DNA from: Nautilus pompilius
Taxonomy: Eukaryota > Mollusca > Cephalopoda > Nautilida > Nautilidae
Direction of reading: 5' to 3'
Length of the DNA: 64,000 nt
Assembly (NCBI GenBank): GCA_018389105.1
Contig: JACATO010000095.1
Location: 1,299,501-1,363,500 of the forward strand
Position numbers and translations under genes: made by a program
Notes under the pieces: model-generated
Told to the model about the DNA's origin: nothing
The model's database searches: none
What the model saw: only the letters and a program-made list of their open reading frames with translations
Shown here: positions 1,441 through 54,629 of the stretch, piece after piece
Numbering within the stretch: the first letter of the stretch is position 1
How the letters are laid out: every line of letters starts with the position of its first letter

Positions 1441-2233
1441 CAGGGATCAGCAATTTCTCGGACACCAGGGGCCAGATTATGGGCCCAAGATCACCTCGCG
1501 GGCCGGAGTAAAAACAAGGACACTTATAAATGCACAAACATATTTATTGCTTTACTACTGCGTATCAGCCTTCTTAACACAATGATAAACATGATGGCGC
1601 TTTCGCCGTGAACACAGAGATGAAATATCCGGTGAAATGCTACAAGATTTCAAAGCAAGGATATCATTGAGGTGACTATCAGTCAACTGTGCACGGAGGA
1701 GGTTCTTGGCGAGCTTCATTTGAGAAAATAATTGTTCACAACTATAAGTCGACACAAACATCGACATGATGACACGAACCAGGCCCACGATTCCAGGAAA
1801 GCGACCACTGGGAAACATAACATCCCTGAAGAAAGCGGCGGGAGACAATGAAGAGAAGTGAGAACGAAGCTGATCGTCACTCTGCAACTCAATAAGCTCC
1901 ATTTGGAGATCAGTATGGGCATCATCCACAACAATGTCAAAGGGCAACGATAAGAACTTCATCTTGCCAGCTCGCCTGCGATAAATATGAAACACTTTCT
2001 TATTCACCTGCGCTGGCATCGATCTTGACGAAAATGAATGGTTGATATCGGTGAATTGCGCACTCTTTACCGAGTTTCCTATAGCATTAGTGTGTTGGTT
2101 AACTATTTTTAGAAATGACAAATGACGACTTTTTAAAGAAAATACTGCCCGCGGGCCAGATTCTATATTAATATGCGTAAAGGCTTGCGGGCCGGACCAG
2201 AGGGGCTCGTGGGCCGCCAATTGCCGACCCCTG
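1441..2233 (-). mobile_element. hAT-type DNA transposon, internally deleted copy
   Basis: The element starts CAGGGATCAGCAA at 1441 and ends TTGCCGACCCCTG at 2233, a 13-bp terminal inverted repeat with two mismatches of the usual hAT form (CAGGGGTCGGCAA). It is flanked by a perfect 8-bp target-site duplication, GTCTAAAT, at 1433-1440 and 2234-2241, as hAT transposases make. At 793 bp it is far shorter than an autonomous hAT element, yet it keeps the end of a transposase gene on the minus strand. It is rich in CpG while the host sequence on both sides is almost devoid of it, so it probably landed recently or is a young copy. Confidence 0.95.
1555..1941 (-). pseudogene. hAT transposase C-terminal fragment
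   Basis: This is a minus-strand open frame ending at 1555. The frame stays open upstream to 2220, but that part reads through the terminal repeat and is not protein-like. From about 1941 the translation matches the C-terminal dimerisation region of hAT transposases of the GTF2IRD2/ZBED-like type: an acidic DLQMELIELQSDDQLRSHF stretch, then STYSCEQLFSQMKLAKNLL and RAQLTDSHLNDILAL. Roughly 128 residues remain. The N-terminal BED finger and most of the RNase-H-like catalytic core are absent, so it cannot be an active transposase. No frameshift is visible in the retained part. Confidence 0.88.
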
Positions 2234-2241
2234 GTCTAAAT

Positions 2242-14667: not shown

Positions 14668-15930
14668 TTAGGTGGTCGTTACAAAAGTTTTGCCGGGTTT
14701 TTACTGAAACAATGAGACTTCACATCGTCGCTGAACGTGAAGTTTATTAACCAAAGTAAGTTCCATTACAATCAGTACATTTATGCCAACGAGTCACAAG
14801 CGCATTTGTACCATTTTCAAAAAAACAAATCTGGATTTCTGGAGTCAATGAACTGTTGGAAGACAGTTTCAGCTGCTGCTTGGTTGGAGAGAAGGATTTC
14901 CTATGGAGGAAGCTGTCGAGGTGTTTGAAAAGGTGGCAGTCTGTGGAGAAAGGTCTGGTGAATAGATTCGGTGATGGAGAACATCGTACCCCAAAGTGTT
15001 CAGTTTCTGAAGAGTCATGAGGACGACGGTTGTCGTGGAGCAGGATTGGGCCTCTTCGACTCACCAACGCCAGCTGTCTTTGGCAGAGTTTCTGATGAAC
15101 AATGTTTAATTCATGACAGTCCTTTCAGCTGTGATGGTTTCGCCAGGTTGCAAGAAGTTATAGTGGATGACACCAGTTGTAGTCCAGCAGACAGTGACCA
15201 TGACCTTCTTTGGGTGGAGGCTGGGTTTTGGAATGTGGTTAGGCACCTTGTCTCTGTCGAGCCACTGTAATTGTCGTAAAGGATCCATTTTTCATCACAC
15301 ATAATGATTCGGTCGACAAATGGGTAATTTTATTTCTTATGACAAGCGAAGAGCAGATCTCCAATCAACAATTTGTTGTTGCTCATTCAATTCGTGAGGC
15401 ACCCACTTGTCAAGCCTTTTCACCTGGTCGATTGCGTCAAGATGCCGGAAACAGTTGCAGTGCTTACGTCAAGCTCTCCCGCAATTTCTCGCACTTTTTT
15501 CTTGGATCGGCTTCAATTTGGGCTTTCAGACGGTTGTCATCACAGCTGGAAGAATGCCCGCTACGTTCCTCAACTTCGAGGCTTTCATCTCCTGATCGAA
15601 ACTTTGCAAACCATCCTTGTACTGTGCACTCGTTTGCTGTGCCCTCGCTCCATGCTGGCTTAACGTTACGAGTTGCCTCGCTTGTTCCGTGGCCTGGTTT
15701 GAACTCGTGAAGCAAAATGGCAAAAAACGTTCCTATCCACGCTTCACTCAGAACCCTGAAACAAATATCCATTTTATGATTTTTAAAAAGGTAGGTTTTG
15801 CATAATGTATGCCAAAGGACAGGCAACAAAACGAAATGTAACTTAACTACGTTCACCTTCACAAACATGCACAAAATGAACCCCAAATTAACATAATATA
15901 AAAACCGACAAAACTTCTGTAACGTTCTAA
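14668..15930 (-). mobile_element. Mariner-family transposon, inactivated full-length copy
   Basis: The left end reads TTAGGTGGTCGTTAC then AAAAGTTTTGCCGGG. The complement of the right end reads TTAGAACGTTAC then AGAAGTTTTGTCGG, so the two termini form an imperfect inverted repeat of about 33 bp of the mariner type. TA dinucleotides abut both ends (14666-14667 and 15931-15932), matching the TA target duplication. At 1263 bp its length is close to that of a complete mariner. The transposase gene on the minus strand is broken by several frameshifts. Confidence 0.92.
14747..15775 (-). pseudogene. Mariner (SETMAR-like) transposase pseudogene
   Basis: Reading leftward from about 15775, the N-terminal helix-turn-helix region is recognisable (SEGTANECTVQGWFAKFRSG, then LEVEERSGHSSS and LKAQIEADPRK). 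The catalytic part follows in fragments in different frames: CDEKWILYDN near 15299, QWLDRDKVPNHIPKPSLHPK and GVIHYNFLQPGETITAE around 15110-15270, PILLHDN near 15040, YSPDLSP near 14954, then FKHLDSFLHRKSF and the C-terminal RWHKCTDCNGTYF ending at 14750. These match the order of the D,D34D transposase of SETMAR-like mariners. All three acidic motifs are present, but at least four frame changes separate them. Confidence 0.9.
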
Positions 15931-15932
15931 TA

Positions 15933-16660
15933 AATGCTATAGTGAAGACGCAATCAAACTGTGGGTAGAAATCACGCGAATCCATTTGGCCTTGATATTT
16001 TAATTTTGGTCTAGTCGAATACATCCTGTAGTTTGTGTGGTGTAAAGGCGCATTTAAAGTTTTTCATGGTGATCTGAGATCTTACTTAGTTTATAAGACT
16101 CTTCCTTCAGAATCGGAAAAAAGTAGGTGAGTCAGTGTGAGACTAAATTACGGTGTCACATCGACAGTGTGGTGTGTACCACTTTGTCCTATAATCACCG
16201 GTCTGTATTTGATTGAAAAATTAACCATTTTAGTCTTACATGGAGTTTCTCTAAGAATAATTAAGAAATTTTTTTATGATCTTGTCAAATTTAAATAACT
16301 CGGAAAATGTTACATTATAAAAAGGAAAAAAACTACTTTTAAAAAATATATATGAAAAAAATCATAATTATTTATATATGAGATTTAAACAAGAAATGCT
16401 TACATTTAGTTTTTCTTTAATTAACTAAATTAAAAATATCTTAAACTTATTTGCAAATCTCATCTTTAATTGAATTTTAAAATACCAAGAATTTCATACA
16501 ATATCGTAGTAAAGTATAAACCAAAATTTTTTTCTGTTTAATTACTGTTAACTTAATGCAAATGGTTCAACTTTTTAACTTGTAGAACTTGTTGCAAAGT
16601 CAGTGTTTATCTGTGTGCATATCAATGGAGTGGGAGCAAATGACATCCATAAGGCCTTCG
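15933..16660. other. Intergenic, AT-rich, no gene seen
   Basis: No coding frame or transposon signature. The sequence is strongly AT-rich at about 16230-16560. Confidence 0.45.
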
Positions 16661-17078
16661 TATCTTAAGAGACGTGTGTCAGTGTCAACCATTTCTTGAC
16701 GCTATCTTAGGAGACGTGTGTCAGTGTCAACCTTTTCTTGACGATATCTTAGGAGACATGTGCCAGTGTCGACCTTTTCTTGACGCTATCTTAGGAGACG
16801 TGTGCCAGTGTCAACCATTTTTGACGCTATTTTAGGAGACGTATGCCAGTGTCAACCATTTCTTGACGCTATCTTAGGAGACGTGTGCCAGTGTCAACCA
16901 TTTTTGACGCTATCTTAGGAGACGTATGCCAGTGTCAACCTTTTCTTGACGCTATCTTAAGAGACGTGTGCCAGTGTCAACCATTTCTTGACGCTATCTT
17001 AGGAGACGTGTGCCAGTGTCAACCTTTTCTTGACGCTATCTTAGGAGACGTGTGCCAGTGTCAACCATTTCTTGACGC
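16661..17078 (+). repeat. 42-bp minisatellite, 10 copies
   Basis: Units begin TATCTTAGGAGACGTGTG and start at 16661, 16703, 16745, 16787, 16828, 16870, 16911, 16953, 16995 and 17037, a period of 42 bp with two 41-bp units. Because 42 is a multiple of three, part of the array is open in one frame and encodes a spurious 14-residue repeat (DAILGDVCQCQPFL). The 41-bp units break the frame, and I do not regard it as coding. Confidence 0.95.
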
Positions 17079-18729
17079 TCTCTTGGGTGCTTGTTCGCGA
17101 TAACGTTTTCGTTTGTGATTTATCTCAGAGTAGAGAAAGTGCGTGGGAAAACTACCTTTAGGATAAAGGTGGACAGAAGAGAAGGTCGAGCCGCAAGTAA
17201 TGATTTATCACGCGCTTTTATTTACCATATTTATTAAATTAGGACGACGACGACGACAATATTAGAGCTGCTATGTTACATCCACAGTCCGGCCTTGCTA
17301 TTCCTGATGACTCCGCTTCCAGCGCTACAGAGATGTAAGGCCAGCCGCGACCGATTCTCAGAGCCGGCTCTTAATTCCATACATCAAGTCGAGCAGTCAG
17401 ACACAAAAGGGGTAGGTCAGGGCCAATAATGATATACTGATGGCACGATTATGGTGGTTTTCTTTCAGTTTCTTTGATGCTGCACTAATTCGCCTGAGCG
17501 AAAACAACAAAACAAAACTTGCAACAAGAGAATCGCAGATTCTGTTAACTTACAGCAAAAACGGGGCTCATCTGTTGGACATATAAAATAAAAATCGCTG
17601 GATACACGAAAAAGGAGAGAGAAAAAACTCAAACAACCAGATATTATCTTCCAGCCGTTTTCCTTATTAATCTTAAAGAAAGCTGTAAGCAAGAGAGTCT
17701 GGTCCATTGACAGTTGACTTCATCTGTCAGCGAACGATTTTGTTCTGCTCGTTTAGCAACGAGGATAGGGCAGAAGCCGGCCTTTTCCTGTTCAGATGCT
17801 CTCCGGGTCGTCCGGGTGTTCTCGAGTGTTTACAGAGTTCGTCGCAGTCCATCGTCTGCGGGCATTGATAACGATGCGCGGGTCCGCATACAGCCGACTG
17901 GAGCGCCGCCGGTGGTGGCTGCGGGCACCCGCGACACGTTTATCTCGGCCCTCATCCTCCTGGGTTTCGCTTAAGCGGATTTAGCTGGCGTTTCGCATTA
18001 ACTGTAAAATGCTTGGGTGCCGTTCTCAAGAATTTCCCATAAAAAATTTTCGGCAGAGGGTGCAAATATTACGACAAAAGGCAGCCGATATCGGAAGGGG
18101 GGTCCCGACTAGCTGTCTCCTCCTTGCTCAGCCAGTCGTGCAATGACCAATGAACTCAAGCGCGAAGAAACTAAACTTCGGAAATACAATTCGGCGTTTT
18201 GCTTCTTTTATTCTCCGTGTTCCCCGTTTGATTGTCGAAGGAGATTATTATGCTCAGTGGTTCTTCTATAAGTTGTTAACTATTCAGAACTCCTGGATTC
18301 TAACAGTAATAATGGCTACTTACAAATAGGCCAGCGTAATAGCGAAGAGAACTGCGACGTTAGCTACAATACACTCCTCGCATACAGAGAACGAGCAGCA
18401 GGTGCCACCAGGGGGCGCGGCTCAGATGTGTTCCTGTTCTGGTTGAACACGTGACGTAACGGTTGTCTTCTCCGGAAGTGAGCGACCCTGGAGACTCCCA
18501 CCCACTCTGCGTACATCTTCGCACGTGACCCATCTCCATTGCCTCCATAACTTGGCTAGAATTCAGCCTGGGAAGGCCCAGGTGTCGGTTAACACCGAAT
18601 GAGGTGGTTGTGAGGGGCGGGGGGTATAGCAGCCGGTGCTTTCCGATACAGTGTTCACGGAAGTGCCATTTCTAGGGTTCTAACGGGGTACCGTCAGACT
18701 GTCAGGTTTAGGGTCCCCTCCCCACGTGA
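17079..18729. other. Intergenic, CpG-normal, no gene seen
   Basis: Mixed-composition sequence with a GAC repeat near 17243-17257, a CpG-rich patch at 17740-17950 and an ETS-like CCGGAAGTGA at about 18473. Short open frames here overlap on both strands and have no recognisable domains. Confidence 0.4.
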
Positions 18730-38916: not shown

Positions 38917-39080
38917 ATCTCTCTCATATCTCTCTAGGATCTCTATCTTAGTAGATCTCTCATCTCTAGAGAAAGACGAGCTCGATGGAAGGGAAGGAAG
39001 TCTCGCTCATCTCTCTCCTCTCTCTCTCTCTCTATCTCTCTCTATCGACATCCTTACCTACGATCTCGGTACTGACGTAA

Positions 39081-42561: not shown

Positions 42562-42609
42562 AAGAGAGAGAGAGGGGGGGGAGAGAGAGAGAGATGATGA
42601 TGATGTCAG

Positions 42610-45460: not shown

Positions 45461-45493
<33 letters not shown>

Positions 45494-45659
45494 GGAGATG
45501 GAGAGAGAGAAAGAGAGAGATGACGTCAGTACAGAGAGAGAGAGAGAGAGAGAGAAGAGAGAGAGGATGGGGAGATGGAGAGAGAGAAAGAGAGAGATGA
45601 CGTCAGTACAGAGAGAGGAGGTAGAAATGGAGAGAGAGAAAGAGAGAGAGGGAGATGAC
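45461..45659 (+). repeat. GA-rich tract with two exact TGACGTCAGTACAG copies
   Basis: GA runs containing repeated GATGGGGAGATGGAGAG blocks. TGACGTCAGTACAGAGAG occurs at 45521 and 45598. Same composite family as the 42.6-kb tract. Confidence 0.93.
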
Positions 45660-46709: not shown

Positions 46710-47405
46710 GTTTACTGCGAGCTTAAGGCCAGCTGTGTACAGGAAGTGACATCGTAACCTTAGTCAACCAATAAGATCCAACAAATACGGTACCAATAGT
46801 TCTCGTGGTTTACTGCGAACTCAAGGCCAGCTGTGTACAGGAAGTGACGTCGTAACCTTAGTCAACCAATAAGATCCAACAAATACGGTACCAATAGTTC
46901 TCGTGGTTTACTGCGAACTCAAGGCCAGCTGTTGTACAGGAAGTGACGTCGTCGTACCTTAGTCAACCAATAAGATCCAACAAATACGGTACCAATAGTT
47001 CTCGTGGTTTACTGCGAACTCAAGGCCAGCTGTGTACAGGAAGTGACGTCGTAACCTTAGTCAACCAATAAGATCCAACAAATACGGTACCAATAGTTCT
47101 CGTGGTTTACTGCGAACTCAAGGCCAGCCAGCTTGTGTACAGGAAGTGACGTCGTAACCTTAGTCAACCAATAAGATCCAACAAATACGGTACCAATAGT
47201 TCTCGTGGTTTACTGCGAACTCAAGGCCAGCTTGTGTACAGGAAGTGACGTCGTAACCTTAGTCAACCAATAAGATCCAACAAATACGGTACCAATAGTT
47301 CTCGTGGTTTACTGCGAACTCAAGGCCAACTGTGTACAGGAAGTGACGTCGTAACCTTATCCAACCAATAAGATACCGTAAAAACAGACTATGCTGAAGG
47401 ATGCG
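46710..47405 (+). repeat. ~98-bp tandem array, seven near-identical units
   Basis: Units begin GTTTACTGCGAACTCAAGG and start at 46710, 46808, 46906, 47007, 47105, 47208 and 47307 (98-103 bp apart). Each contains ACAGGAAGTGACGTCGTAAC, an ETS core overlapping a CRE half-palindrome, and 20-odd bases later AACCAATAAG, a CCAAT box. Length changes between units are small insertions such as GTCGTC and CCAGCCAG. The first unit differs slightly (GAGCTT, GTGACATC). No protein-coding function is evident. Confidence 0.95.
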
Positions 47406-48065
47406 TAAAACAGAAAGTGTAATTGTAACTTTTTCTGCCAATAAGATCCCTTAAATGCTGTTCCTGCTCCTTGAAAAACCATGGGTAGCTGAAAGAAGTG
47501 ATGGCTGGTTCAGGAAGTGACGTTGTAAACATAGGCAGCCAATAAGATCAAGTGTATGACTACTGTGTACCTGATGGAAAGCTGAATGAAGTGATAGCTA
47601 GTACAGGAAGTGAAGTCGTAACTTTACTCGGTCAATAAAACCCCGTAAATATTTACTTTTTGCATTTAATGTGAAACCACAGTTGTCTGAAGGACGTGAA
47701 GACCAGTACAGAAAATTGCGTCGTTATCTTAGTCAAACAATAAAATCTAATAAATACCTGCTGTTGGCATTCAGTGTACATTTATTTAGTTGAAGGAACT
47801 AATGCCTAGTACATTAAATAAAGTCAACCATAGTCAGTCAATAAGATCTCGCGAGTAGACAATATTCGCATTCACTGCGAACTCTATGGGCCAAAGGATG
47901 CGATGCCTAGTAAAGGAAGTGACGTCGTAAGTTTAGTCAGACAATAAATCCTGCAAATATCTGCTTTAGCGTTTACGGCCAACTGATGGACCACTGAAGA
48001 ACATTACGTTTAGTACAGGAAGTAAAATCGTAGCCTTTGTTGGCTAATTTGGTCTGGTGTTTACT
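47406..48065 (+). repeat. Degenerate extension of the ~98-bp array
   Basis: Diverged units continue in phase. Recognisable cores start near 47412, 47512, 47605, 47710, 47810, 47914 and 48017, spaced 93-105 bp. Several keep GGAAGTGACGT or a one- or two-base variant, and most keep (C)CAATAA(G/A)ATC at the same distance. The intervening ~58 bp are much more diverged and share a different consensus (CTGAAGGA..TGATGCCTAGTAC) from the homogeneous units. Confidence 0.8.
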
Positions 48066-48067
48066 GA

Positions 48068-49664
48068 GAGCTTATATCGTATTTTTCGGACTGAAGGTCA
48101 GTCAATTAGGGGAATATGTCATATGGTCATTTTTTGGCCAACATCGGCTATTGGGTCTTAGATAAGTCGATCCCAGGCGAAAGATGGCCGAATCTCCGGC
48201 AAAGAAAGTCTAGGTAAGTATGGGTGAGTATAAGCTCAGAAGCAATCATGGTATGATTAAGCTATTGTGTAATAAAGTTTGAAAAATAGATAAAAAATAT
48301 TGTCTTATTTTTTTCGGAGTAACAACAGCGTTTCTTTGATCTTTTGTCGTCATGTAGAATCTATATTGAGGAGTGAAAAGTGCTTGATTGCTGTTAACTC
48401 AGATGTGGATTACAGAGCTTTGCTGTAAAACAATAAACAAGTCAAGTGTTGATCTGTATTTAATCCGTTGATTATTCACTTGAAGTCCTACATAACAATA
48501 ACGAGTGATTTACTGCTGATCAGCTTGCTTGTCAATCGATAAATAGACTTTACTCTATCAAGTAATAAGGCCAGACAGCTTGAGATATTATTTAACCACG
48601 ATTGTAAGACAATTAAATAAAGTCAGTGTAATGAATTTCAGACGGTGCTAAATATACCTAAGAATTCGACAATCTACTCGACTGACAAAATGTATTTCAT
48701 TCGCCATTTTGTAAATATCTATGTGCGCATGCGTGAAAAGTTTGAAGTGCACTATGGGTAATTTTGTAATACCGATAGGCGAGTAACGCTGTGTATCTGT
48801 TTGTTGTTGATTTGGGCTTTGTTTATTCGTATACCGTAATTGTTCATAAATTTGATTTATTTGTTTGTTGGTTTTTTTCTCATAATATCGTACATAAATA
48901 ATTACAGGATCCGGAATTTTTCGGACTCTGGAATATAGATATACCGGCATACAGGTAGTTTTATGCAATGTTTTTAATCATTTTGTGTGTATGAAAGCAT
49001 AAGATGTACATTTAACATGAGAAAGCTAAGCTATCGCCACGGTAGGCCTACCGGTACCGTGGGGGTATTTGCAGGCCAAAATCACGGTGAGTAAAGCATG
49101 TACGTCAGGTGTGTCGGGACCCACGTGTCGCCCAGGGACCTTCAGGAATTTTCCACCGAAGGCGCTCCAAAAATATTTTGGGTTTTTTTGGAGCTTTTCG
49201 GTTTTCAGAATTTCGGATAAAGGATTGATTCTTGACCTGTATATAAATAAAAATCAAAATGACCAACATTTAATTCTTTAAAAAATCTTTATACTGTACG
49301 TTTATTTGCACTATAAGTGAACATAAAAATATCAGATTATTAAGAGAAGTAAGTGGATAGCAGGCATTGGTCATAAAACATCGTTCGGAAAAATTTCCTA
49401 CAAACATTTTATAGCAGAATCAGTTGCCAGTGTCCAGTTTTTATCAAACAATCTAAGACACTTTTTACCTGTTAACACAAAAGATAACTACATTCAATCA
49501 CTGAAAGCCCTACAGAATATTTATCGTAAAAGTTCTTGGTCCGATCGCCATTTCTGCATAATTTAAAAAAAAAACTTTGTTTCTCAAAATTTCATCTTTA
49601 GAAGGGTCGGGGCTGAGATTTTCAGGGGGGGGAGAAAATCTATAAGCCGAAAAATACGGTACAT
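48068..49664. mobile_element. Possible inverted-terminus element within the array
   Basis: The left edge carries CGTATTTTTCGGACTGAAGG (48071) and the right edge, complemented, TACCGTATTTTTCGGCTTAT (49662), so CGTATTTTTCGG is inverted at the two ends. The 98-bp satellite stops at the left edge and one more unit appears right of the other edge, as if something had been inserted into the array. No transposase and no certain target duplication were seen, so the boundaries are provisional. Confidence 0.4.
48150..48213 (+). other. Candidate short first exon with strong splice donor
   Basis: A CTATTGGGTC (inverted CCAAT) is followed by GCGAAAGATGGCCGAATC, an ATG in good context overlapping a YY1-like AAGATGGC. 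Nine codons (MAESPAKKV) lead to TAG, immediately followed by GTAAGT (48214-48219), so the junction AG|GTAAGT is a perfect donor. The in-frame stop means it can only be a 5' UTR exon or a minimal upstream ORF. It lies about 100 bp beyond the ETS/CRE/CCAAT array. It may equally be part of the putative inserted element. Confidence 0.25.
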
Positions 49665-49740
49665 GGTGTTCGCATTTCTAGGGATCTCGCTGTAAGCTGA
49701 AAAACGTGACGTCTGGTACAGGAAGTGACGTCACTCGGTC
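49665..49740 (+). promoter_or_regulatory. Orphan array unit with canonical ETS/CRE site
   Basis: TGGTGTTCGCATTTCTAGGG followed by GTACAGGAAGTGACGTCACTC resembles one degenerate array unit. It carries the full palindromic CRE (TGACGTCA, 49726-49733) overlapping the ETS core. It sits at the left edge of a CpG-rich zone (49.74-50.25 kb) that contains an inverted CCAAT box (TTTCATTGGACG, near 49768). The arrangement resembles a compact CpG promoter, but no exon was recognised. Confidence 0.45.
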
Positions 49741-54033: not shown

Positions 54034-54629
54034 CTTGTGGGAGGGAGTTCGGCGGGGCGCTGTGTTAGTGGTGGGTGCCTTTGTGGGAGGGGGTTCGGCA
54101 GGGCGCTGTGTTAGTGGTGGTGCCTTTGTGAGAGGGGGTTCGGCGGGGCGCTGTGTTAGTGGTGGGTGCCTTTGTGGCAGGGGGTTCGGCGGGGCGCTGT
54201 GTTAGTGGTGGTGCCTTTGTGGGAGGGGGTTCGGCGGGGCGCTGTGTTAGTGGTGGGTGCCTTTGTGGGAGGGGGTTCGGCGGGGCGCTGTGTTAGTGGT
54301 GGGTGCCTTTGTGGGAGGGGGTTCGGCGGGGCGCTGTGTTAGTTGGGTGCCTTTGTGAGAGGGGGTTCGGCGGGGCGCTGTGTTAGTGGTGGGGCCTTTG
54401 TGACAGGGGGTTCGGCGGGGCGCTGGTTAGTGGTGGGTGCCTTTGTGGGAGGGGGTTCGGCGGGGGCGTGTGTGTTAGTGGTGGGTGCCTTTGTGGCAGG
54501 GGGTTCGGCGGGGCGCTGTGTTAGTGGTGGGTGCCTTTGTGGCAGGGGGTTCGGCGGGCGCTGTGTTAGTGGTGGGTGCCTTTGTGGCAGGGGGTTCGGC
54601 GGGCCGCTGTGTTAGTGGTGGGTGCCTTT
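54034..54629 (+). repeat. 46-bp G-rich minisatellite, ~13 copies
   Basis: Units of the form TTTGTGGGAGGGGGTTCGGC followed by GGGGCGCTGTGTTAGTGGTG and GGTGCC repeat about 13 times with one- or two-base length changes and GGGA/GGCA/GAGA/GACA variants. The + strand is G-rich, with several G runs per unit, so it could form G-quadruplexes. The period is not a multiple of three. A partial open frame rich in GG and AFV is an artefact. Confidence 0.95.

Follow-up and report, generated by a model that had tools for sequence, protein, structure and literature searches.

A tandem array of units with an ETS/CRE composite, one of many arrays of this site in the genome and possibly born from promoter DNA

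Promoters and enhancers are known to arise or gain strength through the tandem copying of binding sites. The ETS-CRE composite of mammalian proximal promoters is described, in the accessible parts of two reports, as being bound by GABPalpha and CREB, with GABPalpha and CREB1 binding cooperatively only at exact overlap of the two sites (PMC3464117, PMC4555227). According to the available text on the MORC3-restricted element of IFNB1, this tandem repeat is made up of seven units that resemble each other and three that vary, with 45 PU.1-type sites, and it is a repressed enhancer with experimental support (PMC13373173). Duplication of an ETS-bearing stretch of the TERT promoter can activate the gene, given helical phase, and recruits a GABP tetramer (PMC9481613). 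In variable tandem repeats of regulatory DNA, again by a partial account, the number of repeats is a possible tuning device (PMC3899988), and in this they may resemble the array described here. A published tandem ETS/CRE array was not found in the open-licence literature at the level of titles and the beginnings of abstracts, which is a thin basis for novelty.

The window analyzed here is a 64-kb stretch of one contig (C95:1299501-1363500, plus strand) from an assembly of 728 Mb in 2558 contigs. Between 46710 and 48054 it contains 14 units arranged head to tail, seven of them young (U1-U7) and seven old (U8-U14). The young units (46710..47374, plus strand; TRF and unit alignment) were detected by TRF with a period of 98 bp, 6.7 copies, 95% matches and a score of 1200, and U7 stops after the core. 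The old units (47375..48054, plus strand) were found by nhmmer (E 3.1e-11 to 1.6e-21); the profile, itself derived from U1-U14, recovers all 14 of these units. Their cores are located at 47413, 47513, 47606, 47711, 47814, 47915 and 48018, and the last eight cores of the array follow each other in steps of 73 to 105 bp. The initial annotation had described a tandem array of ~98-bp units, seven near-identical and seven degenerate, with the latter in ~100-bp phase; TRF, alignment and profile bear out the array. A weak match at 48053..48075 (plus strand; nhmmer E=9.8, non-significant alone) is possibly the stub of one further unit's spacer.

With the entire array or a single 98-bp unit as query, searches of the 728-Mb genome, in which very common words were skipped and only the best candidates were scored and which are weak for old copies, revealed no second place apart from the window locus. 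Copies at many genomic places, as a dispersed satellite or transposon would have, were likewise not seen, only C95 being matched by this search. An ordinary satellite, or the interior of a transposable element with tandem repeats, in which the motifs occur by chance, would suit a window that also has other minisatellites, GA arrays and transposon remains; the restriction of array and unit to their own locus, within the weakness of the search for old copies, argues against it, and we consider this origin very improbable. The reading that we prefer, tentatively and with somewhat less than even confidence, is that the array is a minisatellite which arose by repeated tandem duplication of a ~100-bp upstream promoter segment with ETS/CRE and CAATAA sites.

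Like the ETS-CRE composite in its accessible descriptions, the units have GGAAGT and TGACGTC overlapping via a common GT, and U15, a solitary unit downstream, has GGAAGTGACGTCAC. The exact overlap of GGAAGT with GTGACGTC was found as GGAAGTGACGTC in 7 of the 14 array units and in U15, and the initial annotation was right in that its ETS core overlaps the CRE with the precise published GT. To judge from the letters and the same partial descriptions, array units differ in having CAGGAAGT where the composite has C/GCGGAAGT. The young units have TGACGTCG instead of TGACGTCA and read CAGGAAGTGACGTCGT, with GACATC in U1; the 5' C/GCGGAAGT together with the full palindromic CRE GTGACGTCAC was not found, and U15 has GTGACGTCAC yet also CAGGAAGT. 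A further difference from the known composite is that the site is repeated here at one locus, as a series of putative sites.

The architecture of the array is similar to that of the IFNB1 element as far as the available text describes it, since both combine seven similar units with degenerate or varied neighbors bearing ETS-type motifs (PMC13373173). As there, tandem units with the same factor motif were found in the window, the motif being decayed in most old units. By analogy, the array could be a dense homotypic cluster kept closed in the normal state, as the human MORC3-restricted repeats are, and would be an enhancer only when released. This common architecture would fit, whereas the sites in the human element, in the same portion of the source, are of SPI/PU.1 type, and each of its units has five ETS-type motifs where a window unit has a single composite; the CRE overlap present here goes unmentioned in that text (PMC13373173). 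We regard a repressed cluster of this kind as improbable.

To compare core and spacer, the six old units whose spacers are complete (U9-U14) were used. Across the 42-bp core their mean pairwise identity was 0.68, compared to 0.49 across the spacer and 0.21-0.24 for shuffled sequence. Gaps made up 0.8% of the core and 5.8% of the spacer, and the core-spacer difference was reached by 2 of 105 circular shifts, one of which is the true register. Divergence is therefore unequal, and the better-kept stretch of ~40 bp that had been noticed by eye in the old units is real as a block, but the motifs are not its best-kept part. Over U8-U14 the letters matching the young unit amounted to 65/84 in ETS/CRE, 71/98 in the linker and 46/56 in CCAATAAG, compared to 31/35 and 19/21 in GTACA and ATC, the non-motif ends of the block; 17 of 28 GACG letters were retained. 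Since motif letters match no better than the non-motif ends, the kept entity is the 42-bp block and not specifically the named motifs. The statement that every unit carries both motifs was wrong, as exact GGAAGTGACGTC is present in 7 of the 14 units (U2-U7 and U13) and exact CCAATAAG in 9 (U1-U9). U1 and six of the seven old units have one or more changes in GGAAGTGACGTC; among the old units TGACG was retained in two (U9, U13) and GGAA in four. The distance from GGAAGT to CAATAA is 27 bp in 11 of the 14 units (U3: 29, U8: 26, U12: 25), with U14, which reads TAATTT, counted by position.

The CCAAT pentamer of an NF-Y box is present in U1-U9 and is not kept beyond, U10-U14 reading TCAAT, ACAAT, TCAAT, ACAAT and CTAAT, while CAATAA stays in U10-U13. 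For this reason NF-Y seems doubtful as the second factor, and a Cdx or posterior-Hox-like homeodomain presumably suits the letters of CAATAA better.

The retention data bear on a neutral version of the promoter-born minisatellite, according to which promoter DNA is duplicated more often than other DNA, and the motifs are carried along in copies that are functionless and decaying. It agrees with the finding that, in old units, retention of the motif letters does not exceed that of the surrounding block; plain decay predicts neither that the 42-bp block outlasts the spacer nor that the 27-bp distance persists in 11 of 14 units. We hold the neutral version to be a possible reading of the locus, and on the present evidence nearly as likely as the preferred one.

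A 15th unit, U15, which the initial annotation had missed, is located ~1.6 kb downstream of the array (49661..49734, plus strand) and ends in GTACAGGAAGTGACGTCAC. It was identified by nhmmer with U15 left out of the profile (E=1.1e-9 with the U1-U14 profile and 1.7e-9 with the U8-U14 profile). U15 carries exact GGAAGTGACGTC, its end is GTGACGTCAC, and a second TGACGTC was found 19 bp upstream of its CRE; it lies within a GC-richer stretch (GC 0.52 in 49.6-50.0 kb). U15 could be a relative of the founding copy of the array.

At 48214, 160 bp past the last unit, a donor-like site with the sequence GTAAGT was detected (score 7.1), one of two plus strand sites scoring at least 6.5 in 64 kb with a donor matrix that was typed in from general knowledge. 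The preceding ATGGCCGAATCTCCGGCAAAGAAAGTCTAG (48183..48213, plus strand) is a candidate short first exon with a 9-codon frame that closes where the exon ends. Pfam, at the cut-offs used, gave no match on the plus strand from 48.1 to 64.0 kb and in ~30 kb beyond (~45 kb downstream), and no PDB match on the plus strand from 48.2 to 63.2 kb (15 kb), so that by these scans no recognized coding gene lies near the array. On the minus strand between 28 and 58 kb, TMC (0.18), CDC45 (0.074) and Bac_transf (0.037) were below the curated cut-offs and were taken as chance matches. Coverage was one frame of three on the minus strand from 58 to 64 kb, and ten chosen ORFs for the plus strand before 48.1 kb and, on either strand, for positions below 28 kb. 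Searches for tRNAs (bacterial settings) and against Rfam gave no matches.

Upstream of the array, at a distance of ~1.1 kb, a GA minisatellite (45461..45657, plus strand; TRF period 77) has two exact GACGTCAGTACAG inserts. This kind of minisatellite recurs in 6 of 34 other records (L022, L023, L027, L028, L029 and L055), and its CRE is ATGACGTCAGTACAGAGAG or close to it; in the GA minisatellites of the window the CRE is found at 42602, 42793, 42816, 42879, 45522 and 45599 on the plus strand and at 39067 and 39165 on the minus strand. A descent of the array core from the GA kind carrying TGACGTCAGTACAG was also considered. U15 aligns over 30 columns with a GA-CRE array of another contig, and none of 500 shuffles was as good; with the CRE masked, however, 64 of 500 shuffles matched the score of U15, and U2, U9 and U13 were equaled by 45, 58 and 52 of 500 shuffles even unmasked. 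Such a descent is thus unsupported beyond the common CRE, and we judge it the least probable of the origins considered; the minisatellite at 45461..45657 is probably not the source of the array. In 103 kb of flanking DNA, which is non-random as the flanks were picked by ETS/CRE matches, TGACGTCA occurred 32 times and ACTGCAGT once. Other clean minisatellites of the window are located at 16661-17084 (42 bp x 10.1) and 54035-54629 (46 bp x 13.0), transposase remains are of mariner type (HTH_48; 15464-16063, minus strand) and hAT type (1555-2235, minus strand), and the CpG ratio is 0.90. Taken with the GA repeats, these remains and this ratio would suit an invertebrate animal.

The composite is not confined to the window. 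Allowing one mismatch, 31 matches to GTACAGGAAGTGACGTC were obtained compared to 2 for the reversed control; 10 were on C95 and 21 elsewhere, 20 of the latter being inspected and the C2205 site left out. GGAAGTGACG occurring twice within N2-32 gave 61 matches on 13 contigs, and twice within N74-104 gave 95 matches on 16 contigs, while the reversed control gave 0 in both cases. Both spacings together yield 23 contigs and, with C840 (a 25-bp array, TRF 6.2 copies), 24, a raw count for the two spacings covered that is not normalized for the abundance of single sites. Fifteen of the 24 contigs have non-GA arrays of at least three units with periods from 22 to 112 bp (C95, C317, C365, C565, C634, C663, C840, C1084, C1166, C1330, C1597, C1630, C1634, C1642 and C1764), four are of GA type (C222, C363, C1307 and C2096) and in five GGAAGTGACG was seen as pairs only (C30, C71, C451, C559 and C1413). 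This sorting is a reading of the matched strings, some of which show 80 letters only, and for C71, C222, C317, C663, C840, C1597, C1634 and C1642 it was also done by TRF.

With the 10-mer removed, the spacers of the 15 arrays were alike at p<0.01 in 3 of 105 pairs, where ~1 is expected, so that at this sensitivity most array units show no relationship; kinship, or simple sequence common to both members, may explain the three top-ranking pairs (C565/C1084, C317/C365 and C1330/C1764). C95 and C317 share TC-TAACCT after the core, and this pair is outside the 8 best of 105. A likeness of the C317 and C1642 units to the window unit beyond the 10-mer had been seen by eye and is unsupported. Variation in the 10-letter core exceeds that in the rest of the unit in C663 (0.100 vs 0.005) and C840 (0.080 vs 0.027), in agreement with neutral copying, and falls somewhat below it in C317, C1597, C1634 and C1642; these comparisons in six other arrays rest on 2 to 71 units, few in several of them.

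An NRF1-type palindrome searched at N74-104 was found at 21 places distributed over 8 contigs (control: 0); arrays are evident at C364:130054-130743 and C319:412071-414013; in the one C364 string listed, ATGGCGG is also present. Since the NRF1-type site shows it too, the tandem effect is not special to ETS/CRE and may come with promoter motifs as such; two of these were examined. This is what a neutral origin would lead one to expect. The one-base decoy GCAAGTGACG gave 1 match on 1 contig at N2-32, and the one-base decoy GGAAGTGTCG gave 31 matches at N74-104, all in one C309 array; decoys are sometimes non-empty, as reversed GCAAGTGACG gave 12 matches. The C309 array found via the decoy (C309:1258013-1260968) consists of ~32 very regular 95-bp units carrying GGAAGTGTCG. 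For GGAAGTGACGTC with CAATAA at N8-38, 10 matches were obtained, 7 in the array and 3 elsewhere, compared to 3 for the reversed control. As the matches outside the array equal the control, this pairing does not amount to a general grammar in this genome, and the candidate was rejected.

The likeness to the TERT duplications, as far as the available text goes, would be that an ETS-bearing promoter stretch is duplicated in tandem, recurrently and independently; in contrast to the tumors in which those occur, with one extra ~22-bp copy in helical phase (PMC9481613), there are many copies here, in an assembled genome, with periods that lack phasing. Helical phasing as for the GABP tetramer was rejected, because 6 of 15 array periods are in phase and 6 are expected; the Rayleigh p for the periods was 0.06 with C1330 taken as 98 bp and 0.24 as 49 bp. 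Periods without phasing again suit neutral copying.

Because GGAAGTGACG is in tandem on 24 contigs and the NRF1-type site on 8, the window array looks like one case of a recurrent tandem copying of promoter-motif DNA. The amplified promoter element proposed in the initial annotation is partly supported, by the exact overlap of the composite, the single locus, the core outlasting the spacer, the donor-like site at 48214 and the recurrence of ETS/CRE and NRF1-type arrays; it is weakened by the few TGACG and GGAA left in old units, the loss of CCAAT in U10-U14, the lack of a general pair grammar and the lack of a recognized coding gene nearby. Returning to the preferred duplication of a promoter segment, the segment would have been duplicated in tandem long ago to give the old units, which would then have decayed outside the core, and a recent re-expansion at the 5' side would have produced the young units. 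With at least seven intact composites, the array would, if bound, provide GABP/CREB-like proteins of the ETS and bZIP types with many neighboring docking sites; a transcript beginning near 48.1-48.2 kb or near U15 may lie downstream of it. Promoter origin, factor binding, a start site and an effect on expression are what we infer for this locus, and its action as a promoter is presumed from them. A wider proposal, which we consider rather unlikely as a whole, is that promoter modules (ETS/CRE, NRF1-type, and one GC box with TATA) have become tandem arrays over and over, each time independently, with minisatellite growth supplying promoters with further factor-binding copies; under this proposal the window array would be an old, recently regrown one, in which a bound block is kept while spacers decay. 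Two dozen loci with one composite in mostly unrelated surroundings raise the question whether promoters attract duplication or selection keeps the copies. The window array, where young units adjoin old ones and a solitary relative is present too, lends itself well to testing this.

The individual arrays differ in their surroundings. At C1764:22813-23524 an 88-bp tandem unit has CGGAAGTGACGCG and GGGGCGGGG, with TATAAA in 7 of the 8 strings listed, and to judge by its motifs this unit looks like a core promoter; C1330 has TATAAA followed by TATATA. The C365 array, which continues into an open frame, may derive from an exon, and the C1084 array is near a frame with DVNDNAPVFG, which we take to be cadherin-like; some arrays, such as these two, may be unrelated to promoters. 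Flanks downstream of the motif were inspected at 14 loci (12 arrays and 2 pairs), some over only ~230 bp, and a donor-like site above 6.5 was present at one of them, C1084, 12 bp after the last motif; in C1166 a donor-like site of 5.3 was found at 600 bp. With 1 of 14 flanks having such a site, nearness to first exons is not supported for the class of arrays. Among single sites, the one on C2130 starts 190 bp ahead of an ATG with an open frame, presumably BTB/kelch-like. The single sites of L020, L025 and L030 have a common (T)AWAARGTACAGGAAGTGAYRTCAYT and TACTATGGCTCCT at nearly equal distance; of 130 letters, 72 are identical between L020 and L030, and 49 and 51 in the other pairs, and the three are possibly promoters of one gene family.
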